A stretch of 32,386 nt of DNA, taken from positions 1 through 32,386 of IMG/VR virus record IMGVR_UViG_3300017967_000106. The stretch is one strand, 5' to 3'. The notes under the pieces were generated by a model that was given only the letters and a program-made list of their open reading frames with translations, searched no databases and was not told the DNA's origin. This document shows positions 6,915 through 26,103 of the stretch, in pieces (positions within the stretch are counted from its first letter, which is position 1; every line of letters starts with the position of its first letter). Source of the DNA: a virus. The position numbers were made by a program, and so were the translations under genes.

Positions 6915-8159
6915 TTAGTGAGCAGTAATTTTAAGCCCTCTATTAGAACAAGGCAGACAAATACTGTCAATCTTGCTCCTATCAAATTGGATAGAATCTA
7001 TCGCATCCTCATACTTCTTATTAACACTTCTATCCATCTTAGAGTTCCCTCGTGGGTCACCATTTACCTCATTCATAGTCCAAGCCAAATCAACACCATT
7101 CTCATGCCTGTTAACCCTGTCTTCAGGATTCAATGCCAACTTCTTAAGTACGCCTATAGCAACATTTAGCATTATAGCCTGAATGAAAGAATCTGCCTGA
7201 TCAATAATAAACTGAGTTAAATCACACTCTACAGATACCTTTAGGTTTAGACCATAATTATTGTGCGTGTCATAACTGTTATTGTCTAAATCCCACAAAT
7301 TTGTAAAGTCTCCAGGGTGAGAACCACCAACAGCATCAAAATATTCTCCAAGCGGAGCATATATATAGTCATAGTCATATCCTCGGTCAACCATCCCATT
7401 GATTGAACCACCAGTAACAGCAGATTCGTCATATGCAATCCAATACCTAAAACCAGCATCCAATTCCACACTCAAATCAAACCATTGCATAGATTTAGCA
7501 TTAGTATAGCTGAAAGACTCCGTATGTATAGGTGAATACTGTCCAGACTTAAATATCTTGACCTCTATGCTTTGAGCCTGTTCAAACTGAAGCCCTATCT
7601 TGTAAGGCCTTACTTTCATAGCTAAAGACTGATATGGAGTAATCTCTATAAACCGAACCTTCCCTTGGTTTGTGTTTACGTCAGCAATATTACCAGTCGT
7701 CTTTACTAAATAACCATTCGCTAATACGTCCTTTGCCGTCTTCAACTTACTCTTTCTCGTATACCAATCCCATATAGTATTCGAGATTCCTGCCTCTGTC
7801 TCTCGCCTCAATGTCTCTGTTAATACCTCATATTCCCTCCAATAAGTAGGAGAAGAACTTGGAGTATTTCCAGTGCTTGCAGTCTGATTAAAATAAATAT
7901 AATTTGTGCCACCGTCTTCAACTACATCTCCAAAACTATACTCTGTTCCTGCATCGTAGGCAGGATATGTATAGTTAGTGTCATCTTCACACAAAGAAGA
8001 CAACTGATTAAACTTCATTGACGGATGCACGTCATTGTAGTACCGACCCGTAGTAGACGTGTAAAGGTCAACAAGCTTTGTTTTTGATGGATCAAGTGGC
8101 TGTCTCCAACCAACCATCGGTAAAAAAGCTGCTTTTATTAAATCGTAATCAATCTTCAT
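6915..8159 (-). CDS. Virion structural protein, likely head-tail adaptor with an inserted carbohydrate-binding-like module
   Basis: This 414-residue protein follows the capsid gene across a terminator. The helical N-terminus (about 1-55) and C-terminus (about 310-414) flank a beta-rich middle. Residues about 66-110 read AYDAGTEYSFGDVV...GTNYIYF...NTPSSSPTYW, which matches the spacing of the chitin-binding CBM5/12 type module (W/Y..GT.Y..GD.V...G..Y......N.P..SP..W). Residues 150-300 look like a jelly-roll or lectin-type sandwich. A connector or decoration protein with a surface-exposed sugar-binding insertion would explain this. The gene ends one base before the next start. The structural role is inferred from context and the module from its motif. 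Confidence 0.8.
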   Translation of the reverse strand: MKIDYDLIKAAFLPMVGWRQPLDPSKTKLVDLYTSTTGRYYNDVHPSMKFNQLSSLCEDDTNYTYPAYDAGTEYSFGDVVEDGGTNYIYFNQTASTGNTPSSSPTYWREYEVLTETLRRETEAGISNTIWDWYTRKSKLKTAKDVLANGYLVKTTGNIADVNTNQGKVRFIEITPYQSLAMKVRPYKIGLQFEQAQSIEVKIFKSGQYSPIHTESFSYTNAKSMQWFDLSVELDAGFRYWIAYDESAVTGGSINGMVDRGYDYDYIYAPLGEYFDAVGGSHPGDFTNLWDLDNNSYDTHNNYGLNLKVSVECDLTQFIIDQADSFIQAIMLNVAIGVLKKLALNPEDRVNRHENGVDLAWTMNEVNGDPRGNSKMDRSVNKKYEDAIDSIQFDRSKIDSICLPCSNRGLKITAH

Positions 8160-10648: not shown

Positions 10649-12344
10649 CTTTATCGTTTTTATTAGTAATAGTAGGGACTTTTAGTTCTACCTGCTTATA
10701 AAGGAAGTCGTTTATCTTATCGATAACATCTTCCAAACTATCAGCAGCCAAACCAAACTCCTTTAAACTTTTGTGCTTCCTCTCAAATAAAGAAATCATA
10801 TAAGAGAAATTAAGCTTTAAATAAGCTTCCTGGCGATTCGCTATTCCTTGAGACACAAGACTCATAACGCTTCCTCTTGTTAGATGCCTAAATGGCTCTA
10901 TCTCAAACATTATTCTCGCCCTTCTGTAGCCTCCAGGATTTTCCCTGTACTGAGACTCCAAATACTTCATATATATAGCATCCAGTATCGTGTCAGCCAA
11001 TGATGCCTCTACACCCTTCTTATATGCGCTGAGTAGGACATCTGCTGAGAACACAAAATGCTTTGTGCCGTATGAAACTGTATACTGCCCGAAGTCCTTT
11101 CCATACTTAATCCTGAACATCATGTTCATCAGCCATTCTTCAATATCCTGAAATGGCTTTTGTAGGTCAAGTAAGGTCTGTTGAGCAGAATCAAACAGCG
11201 TAAGAACCTGAGTCTCATTCATGGCCTCGTAATCTGTCGGATTGTATACATCGTTAGTGATTCCAACATATATATATCTCTCCAACTTCTCCAAATCTTC
11301 CCTGAGCATCTTAATAGACTTGACATCTGCATCCAACCTACCTACAGGCTGCTTTAGCTCAGGAATGTCATCACCATTTGGAAACGGAGCCTTCACAAGA
11401 GTCCCTACGCCAATACCCTTAGAACAAGCAGGGCAAGGAATAGAAGAAGAGCTGGGACTGAAGACAGCACCCTCGTTTTTCTGCGTAAGATACCCTCCTG
11501 AACACTTATGAGAACCATCCTCGTAATCACAAGAACCCTCATATAGCCAATGGATAGGGTAGCCAGCACCAAGCTTTGCGTACTTGAAAGATACAATGTC
11601 AAAAAGTAAGTCATCGATCTTGCCTAAATAAGCAGATAAAGGCGACTTGGCAGTCACCCCATCACTCTGCTTAACGCTCCAAAACCACCGAGCAGGACAG
11701 GAGCCAAGGTTGTGGGGAGTGCTTGAATAATCAGATATAGTGTTCTGCTCAAATCTAAAGATATGATATGCAGAGCTATCTATAGCACAATAAACCCCAT
11801 CACCCTTTTGGTAGATGATGTATTCAAAACCACCTCTACCGTCATCCTCAAAATCAGTTATATTAGAAACAGGAACTTCATAAAACACAGGATTACCACC
11901 CTCATCAGAATCTACAACGTACACGTTGTTTATTCCGTACATGAAAGTATTATAAAGCCTGCTACGAAGACCATTGGGATAGCCCCACATTTCTTTGGCA
12001 TATCTCCTCGCATCGTCCTCCTTGTCTTTATCATTAAAGCCAAAGTCTACCGCAGGATCTACACCGTCAAATACCTTCTTTAAACACTGATAAATTTCCG
12101 TAGTAGTAGCTACAGTATCTACAGGAAACCCAACAAGCTTTTCAAATGTCTCAAAATTGTCCTTTGACAATAGACTACGAGATTTATCCATGAACTTACG
12201 CCTGTAAGCACTGTTCCTGGACTCTTTCTCGGTATGAAATAAAAGCTGATTGTGTTGATCAATCGCATCACGAAGAGATTTACTCCTCCTCGTCTGCGAA
12301 GCCCCCGATATCAGCTCTCGTATCTTCTTCTCGGTTAACTGCAT
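10641..12344 (-). CDS. Portal protein
   Basis: This 567-residue protein is downstream of terminase and upstream of scaffold and capsid, where siphophages encode the portal dodecamer through which DNA passes. Helix-rich segments near 345-400 (KSIKMLREDLEKLERYIYVG, then NETQVLTLFDSAQQTLLDLQ) resemble the portal stem/clip region. Residues about 260-310 carry two Cys pairs (SCDYEDGSHKCSGGYL and PCPACSKG) that look like a small zinc-binding insertion. It overlaps a small upstream gene by 65 bases and the following gene by 8. Identification is by position, length and pattern rather than by one diagnostic motif. Confidence 0.88.
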   Translation of the reverse strand: MQLTEKKIRELISGASQTRRSKSLRDAIDQHNQLLFHTEKESRNSAYRRKFMDKSRSLLSKDNFETFEKLVGFPVDTVATTTEIYQCLKKVFDGVDPAVDFGFNDKDKEDDARRYAKEMWGYPNGLRSRLYNTFMYGINNVYVVDSDEGGNPVFYEVPVSNITDFEDDGRGGFEYIIYQKGDGVYCAIDSSAYHIFRFEQNTISDYSSTPHNLGSCPARWFWSVKQSDGVTAKSPLSAYLGKIDDLLFDIVSFKYAKLGAGYPIHWLYEGSCDYEDGSHKCSGGYLTQKNEGAVFSPSSSSIPCPACSKGIGVGTLVKAPFPNGDDIPELKQPVGRLDADVKSIKMLREDLEKLERYIYVGITNDVYNPTDYEAMNETQVLTLFDSAQQTLLDLQKPFQDIEEWLMNMMFRIKYGKDFGQYTVSYGTKHFVFSADVLLSAYKKGVEASLADTILDAIYMKYLESQYRENPGGYRRARIMFEIEPFRHLTRGSVMSLVSQGIANRQEAYLKLNFSYMISLFERKHKSLKEFGLAADSLEDVIDKINDFLYKQVELKVPTITNKNDKDE

Positions 12345-12471: not shown

Positions 12472-13134
12472 TTATGCTACGTATTTCTGTATAGTAAGTG
12501 CATCAAAATCACTTGGAGTATAAGTCTTGTAAAGGTCAGACCATCCTTCTTCCAATTTGAAAGAAATCATGTTTTTGTCAATTCCATCTCTCTGACCAAA
12601 CATCTTATCTCCAACATAGAAAGAACGGATAGGAATACCCCTAACCGCAGTTGGTGATGCAAGATCATCAACAAGAACTCCAAGATTACCGTTCTCATGA
12701 ACGAAAAAAGCAGAAAGGTTTCCGTCATGACACATGAAATCCTTCAAAGTGTCGATAATATCTTGTGGCAACCTCAAGAACTCACCACTGAAGTCCATAG
12801 ATTCAGAACCCCTAACCAAAGGAATTCCACCGAAAGTAGCGTTTCCACCACCATACTCTCTTTTCTCTCCGCCAGAAATCTCACCAGCATGAATAATAGG
12901 AGTAATTACACAGGTAGTTCCATCTGATACCTCAAGCAATCCAGTTCCCGCACCAGCACCATCAGTCCATGTTGCCTGTAAAATAACATCAGCAGGAGCA
13001 ATAGTGTTCAAGGAAGAACCATCTTTGGTCTTTTGTAGAATTAATTTTACAGGAACCCCGACATCTTCACAGCCAGCACTACTCAGGAACGCAGCAGTAA
13101 AATCCCCAGGGTCACAAGCGCATATTAAACTCAT
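12472..13134 (-). CDS. Candidate major tail (tube) protein
   Basis: This 220-residue, beta-rich, Gly-rich protein has no membrane segment. Segments such as SMDFSGEFLRLPQDIIDTLKDF, then NLSAFFVHENGNLGVLVDD and a late SFKLEEGWSD, recall phage tail tube subunits. The tail module at 1-6.9 kb lacks an obvious tube gene, which supports the idea that it has moved here between terminase and portal. It has its own 203-base upstream region containing an operator-like palindrome, consistent with separate strong expression. A head decoration protein is an alternative. Confidence 0.55.
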   Translation of the reverse strand: MSLICACDPGDFTAAFLSSAGCEDVGVPVKLILQKTKDGSSLNTIAPADVILQATWTDGAGAGTGLLEVSDGTTCVITPIIHAGEISGGEKREYGGGNATFGGIPLVRGSESMDFSGEFLRLPQDIIDTLKDFMCHDGNLSAFFVHENGNLGVLVDDLASPTAVRGIPIRSFYVGDKMFGQRDGIDKNMISFKLEEGWSDLYKTYTPSDFDALTIQKYVA

Positions 13135-13242: not shown

Positions 13243-13261
13243 AAGTGTATTTTTTACACTA
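13243..13261. promoter_or_regulatory. Operator-like palindrome, fifth copy of the 17986-18079 motif
   Basis: The site reads AGTGT-N7-ACACTA, with an AT-only spacer. It matches the TAGTGT-N7-ACACTA palindrome repeated four times at 17986-18079, with one end base different. It lies about 110 bases upstream of the tail-tube-like gene on the minus strand. The same protein may bind both places and link control-block occupancy to late gene expression. Confidence 0.6.
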
Positions 13262-17134: not shown

Positions 17135-17563
17135 TTATTTTAAAGTTTTTTTCCAATTATTATAATACTTTTTAAATAGGTCCCATGCGAGTTTTTCACT
17201 CGGTAAATTTTGCCAAAATTTTGAACAATGCATAAGCTTACAACCTTTCACCTCGCCTATCCCGAAAATAGCGTGAACCAATTCATGTAAGATAATTTGC
17301 TCAAACATATTTCGCCTTTGAACACTTTTGCTAAATGCATAAAGGTCGACGTGGACAACGTTTTGGCCAGTGTATGCGTAGGCCGTGGCATTGCTACATT
17401 CAATTATTCTAATTTCAACACGTGGTATATTAAATCCCGAGCTTTTTACCTTATATATTACATTCATAACTTCGCGACGTAATTTATAAGTATCTTTATT
17501 CATACTGAGAATTTTTGCTCCATGCGCGGGTTTGTTTTTTAGTATTTGTGTATAATTGATCAT
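17135..17563 (-). CDS. SprT-like zinc metalloprotein
   Basis: This 142-residue protein carries HELVHAIFG (H93, E94, H97) and a downstream H112 in KLMHCSKFW, matching the HExxH...H zinc site of the SprT/Spartan-like family. The N-terminal half has the beta strands expected before the site. SprT-like proteins are putative proteases, and the Spartan branch degrades proteins crosslinked to DNA; phage copies are of uncertain function. It could help clear bound proteins from DNA or act in lysis. It has its own upstream promoter (17632-17600). Confidence 0.83.
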   Translation of the reverse strand: MINYTQILKNKPAHGAKILSMNKDTYKLRREVMNVIYKVKSSGFNIPRVEIRIIECSNATAYAYTGQNVVHVDLYAFSKSVQRRNMFEQIILHELVHAIFGIGEVKGCKLMHCSKFWQNLPSEKLAWDLFKKYYNNWKKTLK

Positions 17564-17632: not shown

Positions 17633-17985
17633 TTTTTTCCCAAATTTTAACATATAAAATTTTTTGTAATATGTAAAGATCTATGATCCAGGACGGTACA
17701 CATATGAAAAACTTTAATTTGTTTCTAAGGGACGATCTCGGGGTTCATGGTGTGGTAGTACCAAAAATAGGTGAAATGCTCTGAGAGAGGCTTAAAATGG
17801 CCTTAAAACGGACGCAAAATAAAGTTTGCAAAAAGCTTGCTTTATTCAATTATTTGTGTAAGCTTTGCCAGGTGATGAAGACAGAAAAAAACATATTATA
17901 AAAAAATGTAATATGTATCATATAACAAAAATATTTAATATGTAATAATCCAAATAACATATTACAAATTATCATTATATGTACT
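17633..17985. promoter_or_regulatory. Gene-free control region with clustered TGTAATATGT words
   Basis: I see no convincing gene here. TGTAATATGT occurs exactly at 17665-17674 and 17907-17916 and, inverted, at 17957-17966, with near copies at 17891-17900 and 17935-17944. This repeated word in an AT-rich tract suggests binding sites for one protein. The region also contains the inverted 29-base element at 17785-17813. It merges into the palindrome array at 17986. Confidence 0.5.
17785..17813 (-). repeat. 29-base element, inverted copy of 31179-31207
   Basis: Read on the minus strand, the element is TCC-n-TTTTAA-n-GCCATTTTAAGCCTCTCT. It matches the plus-strand sequence at 31179-31207 at all but two of 29 bases. 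Inside it the word CCnTTTTAAG is repeated at an 11-base step. Both copies are non-coding and face inward around the early region. Confidence 0.75.
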
Positions 17986-18079
17986 TAGTGTATATTTGAC
18001 ACTATCTACTTAGTGTAGATTGGACACTATGTACTTAGTGTAGATTGGACACTATGTACTTAGTGTCAATGTGACACTA
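17986..18079. repeat. Four palindromic sites at 25-base period (iteron/operator array)
   Basis: TAGTGT-N7-ACACTA occurs at 17986-18004, 18011-18029, 18036-18054 and 18061-18079. The starts are exactly 25 bases apart and the spacers differ (atatttg, agattgg, agattgg, caatgtg). Conserved arms with variable centres and fixed period are typical of cooperative protein binding at an origin, partition site or operator. A fifth copy lies at 13243-13261. The protein that binds them is not identified. Confidence 0.85.
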
Positions 18080-18082
18080 TCT

Positions 18083-18107
18083 GGGGATGGGCCGGGCCGG
18101 GCCGGGG
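18083..18107 (+). other. G-quadruplex-forming motif
   Basis: Five runs of three or four G separated by 2-base loops (AT, CC, CC, CC) occupy 18083-18107, satisfying the common G3-N1-7 quadruplex rule on the plus strand. The GGCC units could instead fold into short hairpins. It is striking in such an AT-rich genome and lies between two repeat arrays. Confidence 0.7.
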
Positions 18108-18130: not shown

Positions 18131-18193
18131 TCCCATTGGGCAAAGCTCCCATTGGGCAAAGCTCCCATTGGGCAAAGCTCCCATTGGGCAAAA
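18131..18193. repeat. Four 16-base direct repeats (TCCCATTGGGCAAAGC)
   Basis: Three full units start at 18131, 18147 and 18163, and a fourth at 18179 runs to about 18193, touching the stop codon of the minus-strand gene at 18194. Each unit holds a small CCCA/TGGG dyad. There are no unique spacers, so this is not a CRISPR array. The GGGCAAAG core is also found four times in the 23428-23487 coding repeat. Confidence 0.9.
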
Positions 18194-18427
18194 TTACAGC
18201 TTTCCACCGAGCAGTTGGTCGTAGATCTTCTCCTGGATTTTCGGGGCGATGATTTGGTAGATGAGGAAGATCGTGTCTTGATCGTAATCGCTGTTGGAAG
18301 CTCTTGCTCCATTCCATGAATCTCCTGACGCATATCCGTAGACACCTGCGAAGTCGTCATCTGTGAGATTTAGGTGACGTTTCATCATGTCGTAGCCTCG
18401 GTTCCTCTTACGCCTCTTCTTGGCCAT
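18194..18427 (-). CDS. Small hypothetical protein, basic N-terminus
   Basis: This 77-residue protein begins MAKKRRKRNRGYDMMKRH, a basic stretch that could contact nucleic acid, followed by an acidic/neutral region and a helical C-terminus (DTIFLIYQIIAPKIQEKIYD). It overlaps the preceding minus-strand gene by 20 bases and ends against the 16-base repeat array. No family is recognised. As the gene nearest the palindromes and quadruplex motif it is a candidate DNA-binding partner, which is an inference from place and charge. Confidence 0.72.
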   Translation of the reverse strand: MAKKRRKRNRGYDMMKRHLNLTDDDFAGVYGYASGDSWNGARASNSDYDQDTIFLIYQIIAPKIQEKIYDQLLGGKL

Positions 18428-18635
18428 TACTATCTAAATTAAACTGTTTGGAAAGGTCAGAATCCAGTGCCATGACCATTATTTCGTAGCTCTTTCCCTT
18501 TGGACTGTTGTAGGTTCCAATATTTTGGATAAGCTCATCGAGGTCTGTGGATCCTTTGTGCATTGCATTGAGTTGTTGATCGATAGCATCGAGGAACTCC
18601 AACATCATAGCATTTATTATTTCACTTTTTTTCAT
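18408..18635 (-). CDS. Small hypothetical protein
   Basis: This 75-residue, mostly helical acidic protein begins MKKSEIINAMMLEFLDAIDQ, with no recognised family. It is the first gene of a short minus-strand pair reading away from the A-rich divergent region and is coupled to the next gene by a 20-base overlap. Its leader is AT-only, without a clear Shine-Dalgarno site. Confidence 0.75.
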   Translation of the reverse strand: MKKSEIINAMMLEFLDAIDQQLNAMHKGSTDLDELIQNIGTYNSPKGKSYEIMVMALDSDLSKQFNLDSNGQEEA

Positions 18636-18774
<139 letters not shown>

Positions 18775-18789
18775 TACCATCATTGGGTA

Positions 18790-18820
18790 TTGCGTAGCAT
18801 TAAAATTACCCTTATGTTTG
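18790..18820 (+). promoter_or_regulatory. Early promoter, copy 1 of 3
   Basis: TTG (18790-18792), a 20-base spacer and TATGTTTG (18813-18820) fit the Bacteroidota -33/-7 consensus. The surrounding sequence (ACCAT...TTGGGTATTGCGTAG, then AAATTACCCTTA before and GAAGTATTAA after) is shared with copies at 19285 and 20244. GGGTA and TACCC form an inverted repeat within it. The gene start is 65 bases downstream, and an A-tract lies directly upstream. Confidence 0.85.
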
Positions 18821-23067: not shown

Positions 23068-23649
23068 ATGGGTACAGAACTAAAAACAATCAACATACAT
23101 GGAAAGCAGTATGTTGAAGTATCTGAAAGGGTCAGGTACATCAGGGAAGCTCATCCTGAATTCCGTATAGTTACGGAGTTAATTAGCATGGACGGTGATT
23201 CTTGTCTATTTAAGGCATCACTGCTCAATCAGGACGATGAAGTATTGGCTACGGGCCATGCATATGAAGAGAAGTCTTCGAGCCGAATCAACAAGACTTC
23301 TCACGTTGAAAACTGTGAAACCAGTGCCGTGGGTAGATGCCTCGCCATGTATGGTGTCGGGATTGAGAATAGCATAGCATCGGCTAATGAGGTGCTGAAT
23401 GCTAAGGCCAATGGAAAATCCAATGCTCCTTCGGGCAAAGTTCCTTCGGGCAAAGTTCCTTCGGGCAAAGTTCCTTCGGGCAAAGCAGAGCCATCAGACA
23501 AGTCTGTAGAGAACTTGATTAGGCTTATCGAGGCTATGTCTGACATAAATGACTTGCGCCAGGCATGGAAGGACAATGTTGTTCAAATAAATAGTTCTCA
23601 GAAGCTAAAGAAGGCGTTTGAGGTCATGGCTAAAAAGCTCGGGCAATGA
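23068..23649 (+). CDS. Single-strand annealing protein (ERF/Rad52-like), probable
   Basis: This 193-residue protein has the N-terminal pattern of a phage annealing/ERF-like family: RVRYIREAHPEFRIVTELIS, then ATGHAYEEKSSSRINKTSHVE and NCETSAVGRCLAMYGVGIEN at about 82-101. Residues 121-139 are four PSGK[VA] repeats forming a flexible basic linker, followed by a helical C-terminus. Annealing proteins pair complementary ssDNA, and this one overlaps by 4 bases a YqaJ-type exonuclease gene, as in lambda Bet/Exo pairs. Family assignment is from pattern memory, strengthened by that neighbour. Confidence 0.75.
   Translation: MGTELKTINIHGKQYVEVSERVRYIREAHPEFRIVTELISMDGDSCLFKASLLNQDDEVLATGHAYEEKSSSRINKTSHVENCETSAVGRCLAMYGVGIENSIASANEVLNAKANGKSNAPSGKVPSGKVPSGKVPSGKAEPSDKSVENLIRLIEAMSDINDLRQAWKDNVVQINSSQKLKKAFEVMAKKLGQ
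23428..23487 (+). repeat. Four 15-base in-frame repeats encoding PSGK[V/A]
   Basis: Units CCTTCGGGCAAAGTT start at 23428, 23443, 23458 and 23473 and encode the PSGKV linker of the annealing protein. They resemble the non-coding TCCCATTGGGCAAAGC array at 18131-18193 in sequence and copy number. The 15-base unit preserves the frame if copies are gained or lost. Confidence 0.9.
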
Positions 23650-25365: not shown

Positions 25366-25628
25366 AAAAAATAATTTTTGATACATACGGCAGGCCGAGG
25401 GAAATCGAGGAACCACCTTTATTGGTGGTACTCGATCCCTACTGCTGGTCTAAGAAGACGGAAACTGAAAAGAAAACAGAGGTGAGGATGGAACTACTCA
25501 TCTTAGAGCGTCAAATTAAGCAGGACGACATTTTTTTTGAAAAACTAAAACAGGAAACAAATGAGACTAAAGGGAGTATGGATTTCGATAGATATATGGC
25601 ATCGAGAGGGATTGTCACCAACGGCTAA
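25362..25628 (+). CDS. Small hypothetical protein, TTG start
   Basis: This 88-residue protein, acidic and helical toward the C-terminus, begins at a TTG that overlaps the preceding TGA stop, suggesting coupling; no in-frame ATG gives a comparable start until codon 43. The N-terminus contains a Pro-rich segment (GRPREIEEPPLLVVLDPY). It overlaps the winged-helix gene by 68 bases. No family is recognised. Confidence 0.65.
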   Translation: MKKIIFDTYGRPREIEEPPLLVVLDPYCWSKKTETEKKTEVRMELLILERQIKQDDIFFEKLKQETNETKGSMDFDRYMASRGIVTNG

Positions 25629-26103
25629 GTTCCTCATATCGTATCTTATCGGAAGAAAAAAAAATAATGGAACACTTAATTACACCAATCTGTCAAAGAT
25701 ATTAGGCTGCACTAAGGCCAGGGTTTCCCAAGTTATTGAGGAATTAGAGAAATCGGATTTAATAAGGATTAAGGAGGATGGCAAGACGAGGCTCTACTCA
25801 CTTGTAGGCATGGATGCTATGCAAATTCCATCTATATTTGATGGTTTAATAGATGACCTGCCTGAAGACAAGAGAGAATTGCTTGAAATATGGATCGAGT
25901 ATAGGGATGAAATAAAGAAGCCTATCAAGACGAGGCGTTCAGCTAAGGTTTTGGTATCAATGTTTGAAGATCATGGCTTAGAGAGCCTCAAAAAGGCTTT
26001 AAATAGGTCTACAGCTAATGGTTGGACGGGTATATTCCCTGAAGATGAGAAATCATCGGAAACCAAGGTCGTAGTAACTCCATCTAAATACAGGGAGCTA
26101 TGA
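25561..26103 (+). CDS. Winged-helix replication initiation/helicase-loader-like protein
   Basis: This 180-residue protein has an N-terminal winged helix: GVWISIDIWHREGLSPTAKF at 5-24 and a helix-turn-helix around NYTNLSKILGCTKARVSQVI at about 40-59. The C-terminal part contains ESLKKALNRSTANGWTGIFP, a motif of phage primosome/helicase-loading proteins. It is followed by a 4-base overlap with the DnaB gene, so a role in loading the helicase, possibly at the 17.9-18.8 kb control block, is likely. This is inferred from the domain and neighbour. Confidence 0.78.
   Translation: MRLKGVWISIDIWHREGLSPTAKFLISYLIGRKKNNGTLNYTNLSKILGCTKARVSQVIEELEKSDLIRIKEDGKTRLYSLVGMDAMQIPSIFDGLIDDLPEDKRELLEIWIEYRDEIKKPIKTRRSAKVLVSMFEDHGLESLKKALNRSTANGWTGIFPEDEKSSETKVVVTPSKYREL

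Follow-up and report, generated by a model that had tools for sequence, protein, structure and literature searches.

The window, that is, the whole stretch of DNA analysed here, is an entire IMG/VR record of 32,386 bases from a tailed phage. Its terminase is closest to those of Riemerella phages (46%), followed by Nonlabens and Bacteroides phages, which makes a host among the Bacteroidota likely. The window shows no terminal repeat. When its ends (1 and 32386) are joined, one minus-strand frame stays open across the junction; therefore, the record possibly represents a whole genome in circularly permuted form. At the place where the gene orientation parts into the late/minus and the early/plus halves, as the original prediction had placed it, the palindrome TAGTGT-N7-ACACTA occurs in four exact copies, at 17986-18004 (centre ATATTTG), 18011-18029 (AGATTGG), 18036-18054 (AGATTGG) and 18061-18079 (CAATGTG), which are referred to below as NrtR-type boxes 1 to 4. 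The arms are constant, the centres differ and the period is exactly 25 bp. No exact match was expected by chance and none appeared in 100 dinucleotide-preserving shuffles, which bears out the regular array of the original prediction. Two further boxes, each with one mismatch and likewise assigned to no strand, had escaped the original prediction. The site at 13243-13261 (AAGTGT-N7-ACACTA) lies about 110 bp upstream of a 220-aa minus-strand gene among the virion genes (12472-13134) and is a fifth box of the window, its position being kept in relatives. The other, at 7976-7994, lies in a coding frame and may be a chance occurrence; it is also present in a 97%-identical sister, but at such closeness its presence there says little.

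The array is flanked by several other elements. The first minus-strand gene to its left (17135-17563, 142 aa) has a weak match to Peptidase_M76, below the cut-off. A second palindrome family, ACATATTA-N10-TAATATGT, which was also absent from the original prediction, lies at 17891-17982 (no strand), with an exact copy at 17891, a copy with two mismatches at 17918 and one with a single mismatch at 17957; when up to three mismatches are allowed, seven matches are found against 0.57 expected. This family is also present in the related L137 (15554, 15620 and 15691) and L078 (7560), and in L137 one copy stands between two NrtR-type boxes. A weak candidate minus-strand promoter at 17926-17953 (TATTTTTG, with TTG at 17 bp) lies about 33 bp beyond the array. 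The neighbours on the right that the original prediction had named were all located: a G-rich segment, GGGGATGGGCCGGGCCGGGCCGGGG, read there as a quadruplex motif (18083-18107, plus strand), a repeat array (18131-18192, plus strand) and an A-rich tract (18662-18766). The GGGCC repeat at 18089-18106 is the right-hand neighbour of the boxes, and in relatives other sequence takes the place of the G-rich segment. The repeat array after it is made of four tandem copies of TCCCATTGGGCAAAGC, and similar GGGCAAA/TTTGCCC repeats adjoin boxes in the related L137, L078, L136 and L079; the GC-rich tandem repeats with the GGGCAAA core are at 7274-7335 in L078, 4508-4577 in L136 and 8993-9025 in L079. A related 15-base repeat at 23427-23485 of the window is translated as PSGKV repeats. 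Two minus-strand ORFs with no function assigned follow: one of 77 aa (18194-18427), for which a 25%-identical protein is encoded at the same place in L078, and its partner of 75 aa (18408-18635). A candidate early promoter on the plus strand (18790-18820; TTG at 18790-18792, 20 bp, TATGTTTG at 18813-18820) is presumably of the Bacteroidota type. No Bacteroides Crp-like sites were found near the array, Rfam and tRNA searches gave nothing, and no isolated phage similar in DNA to the array region was found. Plasmid matches (Terrisporobacter ParA) were weak and were set aside; the single locus examined held three-mismatch sites only.

Relatives were found by a major-capsid search, several of the viral records being fragments. 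The sister L110 (97%) and the more distant L078/L111 and L112 (59%) all carry boxes, and none was found in 19 other records, 17 of which are more distant capsid relatives (36-50%). The array locus, beside small ORFs and GGGCAAA/TTTGCCC repeats, has three boxes in L110 and a single one in both L078 and L112; the counterpart of box 4 in the L110/L137 sister has the same centre and one mutated arm. The box upstream of the 220-aa gene, whose product is 54% identical in L078, is exact in L078 (13957) and has one mismatch in L112, as it has in the window. A further orthologous box is located upstream of another virion-region gene in L078 and L112, and both also carry a box pair in another gene-free stretch. 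Thus, the search of related phages bore out the array: boxes stand at orthologous places in L137, L078 and L112 with conserved arms and variable centres, and a loss of the arms among relatives, which would speak against a binding site, was therefore not what was seen. Boxes are lacking in L003 and L004, to which a search with the 142-aa neighbour gene had led, and there is no box in the stretch examined of MW202828, a G3 relative.

The identity of the site was suggested by bacterial genomes. A query of two TAGTGT-N7-ACACTA palindromes within 30 bp, run against 84,980 genomes (one per species), returned 50 loci. NAD-regulon genes were present in 38 of them and NrtR in 32 (tblastn), often with no more than about 60 bp between NrtR and a box, and in most cases an ORF of the NUDIX type directly adjoins the sites. 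Pfam matched one box-adjacent gene product to NUDIX (E 3e-20) as well as to NrtR_WHD (E 2e-26), and NadA, NAPRTase, ADP-ribosylglycohydrolase and Band_7 were among the neighbours at other loci. No Bacteroidota is named in the titles of the 50 loci. Because paired sites adjoin NrtR and/or NAD genes at most of these loci, the palindrome is of the NrtR operator type. The match comprises 12 fixed bases plus the spacing, and the GTGT-N7-ACAC core of NrtR-family operators is present in all four array sites. On this sequence likeness, the TAGTGT-N7-ACACTA sites are predicted with high confidence to be NrtR-family operators. A Clostridia MAG (L026, 337-1352) carries eight copies in a long array, and no NAD-gene match was found in the stretch examined. 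The original prediction had been unable to match the locus to a known phage system. This was wrong in part, as the operator type is a known one, although its occurrence in phages that lack the regulator seems undescribed; among the papers searched, none appeared from its title and abstract to deal with NrtR boxes in phage genomes. NrtR boxes of NAD genes have the same arms and N7 centre and are found in many phyla, paired beside nrtR, nadA, NAPRTase, nadE, pncA, ADP-ribosylglycohydrolase and Band_7. In contrast, the window has no nrtR and gave no match to the NAD genes tested, its four sites stand in a strict 25-bp register and the array overlaps no conserved promoter.

The same paired-box scan of viral contigs gave 16 stretches, mostly from unrelated phages, several of which carry arrays similar to that of the window; a permuted-arm control (TGATGT) with the same query, a single run on the viral collection, gave none. 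Two of the box-carrying groups resemble Flavobacteriia phages in their terminase or GroEL. In another phage group (L005 at 11190-11300, L006, L020, L218/L220), the repeats next to the boxes are TGAAACTGCC or TGAGACTGCC instead. In L010, L015 and L221, the boxes alternate with TTATTGT-N7-ACAATAA palindromes built on the same 7+7+7 plan, perhaps the sites of a second NrtR-family member.

What binds the boxes is probably encoded by the host. Neither the window nor any of the 16 viral records has the NrtR winged helix (NrtR_WHD), tblastn of the same records with NrtR, NadV, NAPRT, NadE, NadD, PncA, NadA, Prs, DraG and prohibitin gave no match, and no nrtR or NAD gene was found downstream of a box within the window. 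These negative results, together with the lack of any ORF family common to all box-carrying groups, point to the host, and the simplest reading is that several phage lineages reached a host-encoded binder independently. The small proteins encoded at 18194, 18408 and 27349, which had been proposed as candidate binders, are not required, and blastp finds no relatives of them in the unrelated box-carrying phages. The box is no marker of NAD genes in phages either, because none was found at 80 phage nadV loci (675 kb).

In Bacteroidota, the NrtR family also includes AraR and XylR (PMC4666351, PMC3878776). The operators of BtAraR are AGTGT-N7-ACAC and often tandem, the BtAraR-DNA structure (PDB 5DEQ) defines GTGT as the motif, and the footprint of the dimer is 25 bp (PMC4666351). 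This footprint equals the period of the array, so four dimers could stack on it without gaps. The AraR/XylR branch thus shares GTGT-N7-ACAC and the tandem habit with the window but differs in the outer bases (AAGTGT...ACACCC or ACACTT), and its known targets are pentose operons. The Bacteroidota loci read agree with this operator type, although their outer bases vary: TTTGTGT-N7-ACACAAA precedes prs in the nrtR-prs-nadV locus of Persicobacter, with arms different from TAGTGT, and the arabinose operons of Emticicia and Bacteroides carry tandem GTGT-N7-ACAC pairs. TTAGTGT-N7-ACACTAA was absent from four Bacteroidota plasmid records with up to one mismatch allowed. On viral contigs, no exact boxes were found at NrtR-like genes, and boxes with one or two mismatches precede several of them; in L243, for example, which counts among the agreeing Bacteroidota examples, a NUDIX regulator (NrtR homologue) at the contig end has TTAGTGT-N7-ACACAT about 40-60 bp upstream. 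The host partner is most likely a repressor of the NrtR family, which may belong to the NAD branch (NrtR itself) or to the pentose branch (XylR/AraR, for instance).

From these observations, we consider it fairly likely that the sites are NrtR-family operators bound by a host repressor, with the array titrating the repressor and the single sites placed at phage promoters. The four palindromes are placed so that four dimers of an NrtR-family protein (NUDIX plus winged helix-turn-helix) could sit side by side. As the phage DNA multiplies, the array would soak up the host repressor, and the host regulon would be derepressed. Where single boxes lie at late-gene promoters, phage transcription would also come to depend on the ligand of the repressor, ADP-ribose or a sugar. 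That titration is the main job of the boxes is close to an even call, if anything slightly doubtful; that control of phage promoters is their main job is possible, though we lean against it.

A version without titration, in which the sites are ordinary operators through which a host NrtR-family repressor controls phage promoters and late transcription follows ADP-ribose/NAD or a sugar, is rather unlikely. It is consistent with L078 and L112, where two genes of the virion region are each preceded by a single box that starts 11-25 bp after the start of TANNTTTG on the coding strand (23-25 bp at the 220-aa gene, 11 bp at the other). We take TANNTTTG to be a promoter -7 element; such elements occur at only about 1.4 per kb on both strands. 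However, no excess of the element was found near the arrays, either in the window group or in other phage groups, it is absent at the 13243 site of the window, and four to seven copies of the box exceed the need of one promoter.

The match to the NrtR operator, in its 12 fixed bases and its spacing, argues against a phage-encoded regulator, a repressor or a late switch, whose recognition sequence merely resembles the NrtR box. So does the lack of NrtR_WHD and of an ORF family shared by the unrelated box-carrying groups. Such a regulator would fit the scatter of sites over intergenic regions in the window group, which is like a phage regulon, and small ORFs of no assigned function flank the array, but we regard it as improbable.

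The original prediction had offered origin iterons, a partition site or a stacked operator as the kinds of protein-binding array that this one might be. A binding array is supported, with the stacked operator as the best fit, whereas origin and partition roles are less likely. For an origin, whose iterons would lie where transcription diverges and the GC skew turns, we see little probability. The cumulative GC skew has its minimum at about 15.5-17.5 kb, near the parting of the late/minus and early/plus halves, and AT-rich DNA and the second palindrome family adjoin the array; yet divergent transcription alone accounts for the skew. Iterons of the lambda type are likewise short palindromes repeated in an array, and in L019 (409-472) same-arm paired palindromes sit inside a replication initiation O-like (RepO-like) gene as such iterons do, so the box arms can occur in another setting. 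In the window, however, the RepO-like gene (25561-26103) is 7.5 kb from the array, and single copies of the box precede virion-region genes. L078 and L112 keep one box at the place of the array, yet have single boxes before virion-region genes, so the sites are not confined to an origin. As for partition, no parA or parB was found among the scanned ORFs, which are part of the ORFs of the window.

RNA hairpins acting as terminators or processing sites are very improbable: the fold of a 106-nt stretch is more stable than those of its shuffles (z -4.1), but a favourable fold follows automatically from repeated palindromes, no U-run follows the repeats, and pairing is not kept, because one arm changes without the other in L137 (TATTGT...ACACTA) and in L220 and L219 (left arms TTATCGT and TTAACGT with ACACTAA).

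The reading that we prefer is therefore that the array titrates an NrtR-family repressor of the host and that single sites act at phage promoters. ADP-ribose causes NrtR of other bacteria to dissociate from DNA (PMC4666351). Several phage defences cleave NAD (PMC12774641), and a link of the array to NAD depletion is possible. The same paper describes phage genes for NAD+ salvage or reconstitution (NadV, NARP1), which would serve a similar end, namely to keep NAD available during infection. Those phages carry enzymes, with no boxes at the 80 nadV loci, whereas the window has boxes and no such enzyme was found in it. A bolder reading, which we hold to be rather unlikely, is that phages of separate lineages arrived by convergence at DNA sponges made of host NrtR-family operators, which would titrate a host metabolic repressor during replication and so raise NAD or pentose metabolism without an enzyme gene, possibly in answer to NAD-depleting defences.

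If the preferred reading is right, DNA sites alone allow phages to manipulate a metabolic repressor of the host or to read its state. This would be an influence on NAD or pentose metabolism during infection that needs no gene, and it would bear on NAD-depleting defences. The array would also serve as a DNA signature by which such phages can be searched for, and the prediction is that a host protein of the NrtR/XylR type binds it.
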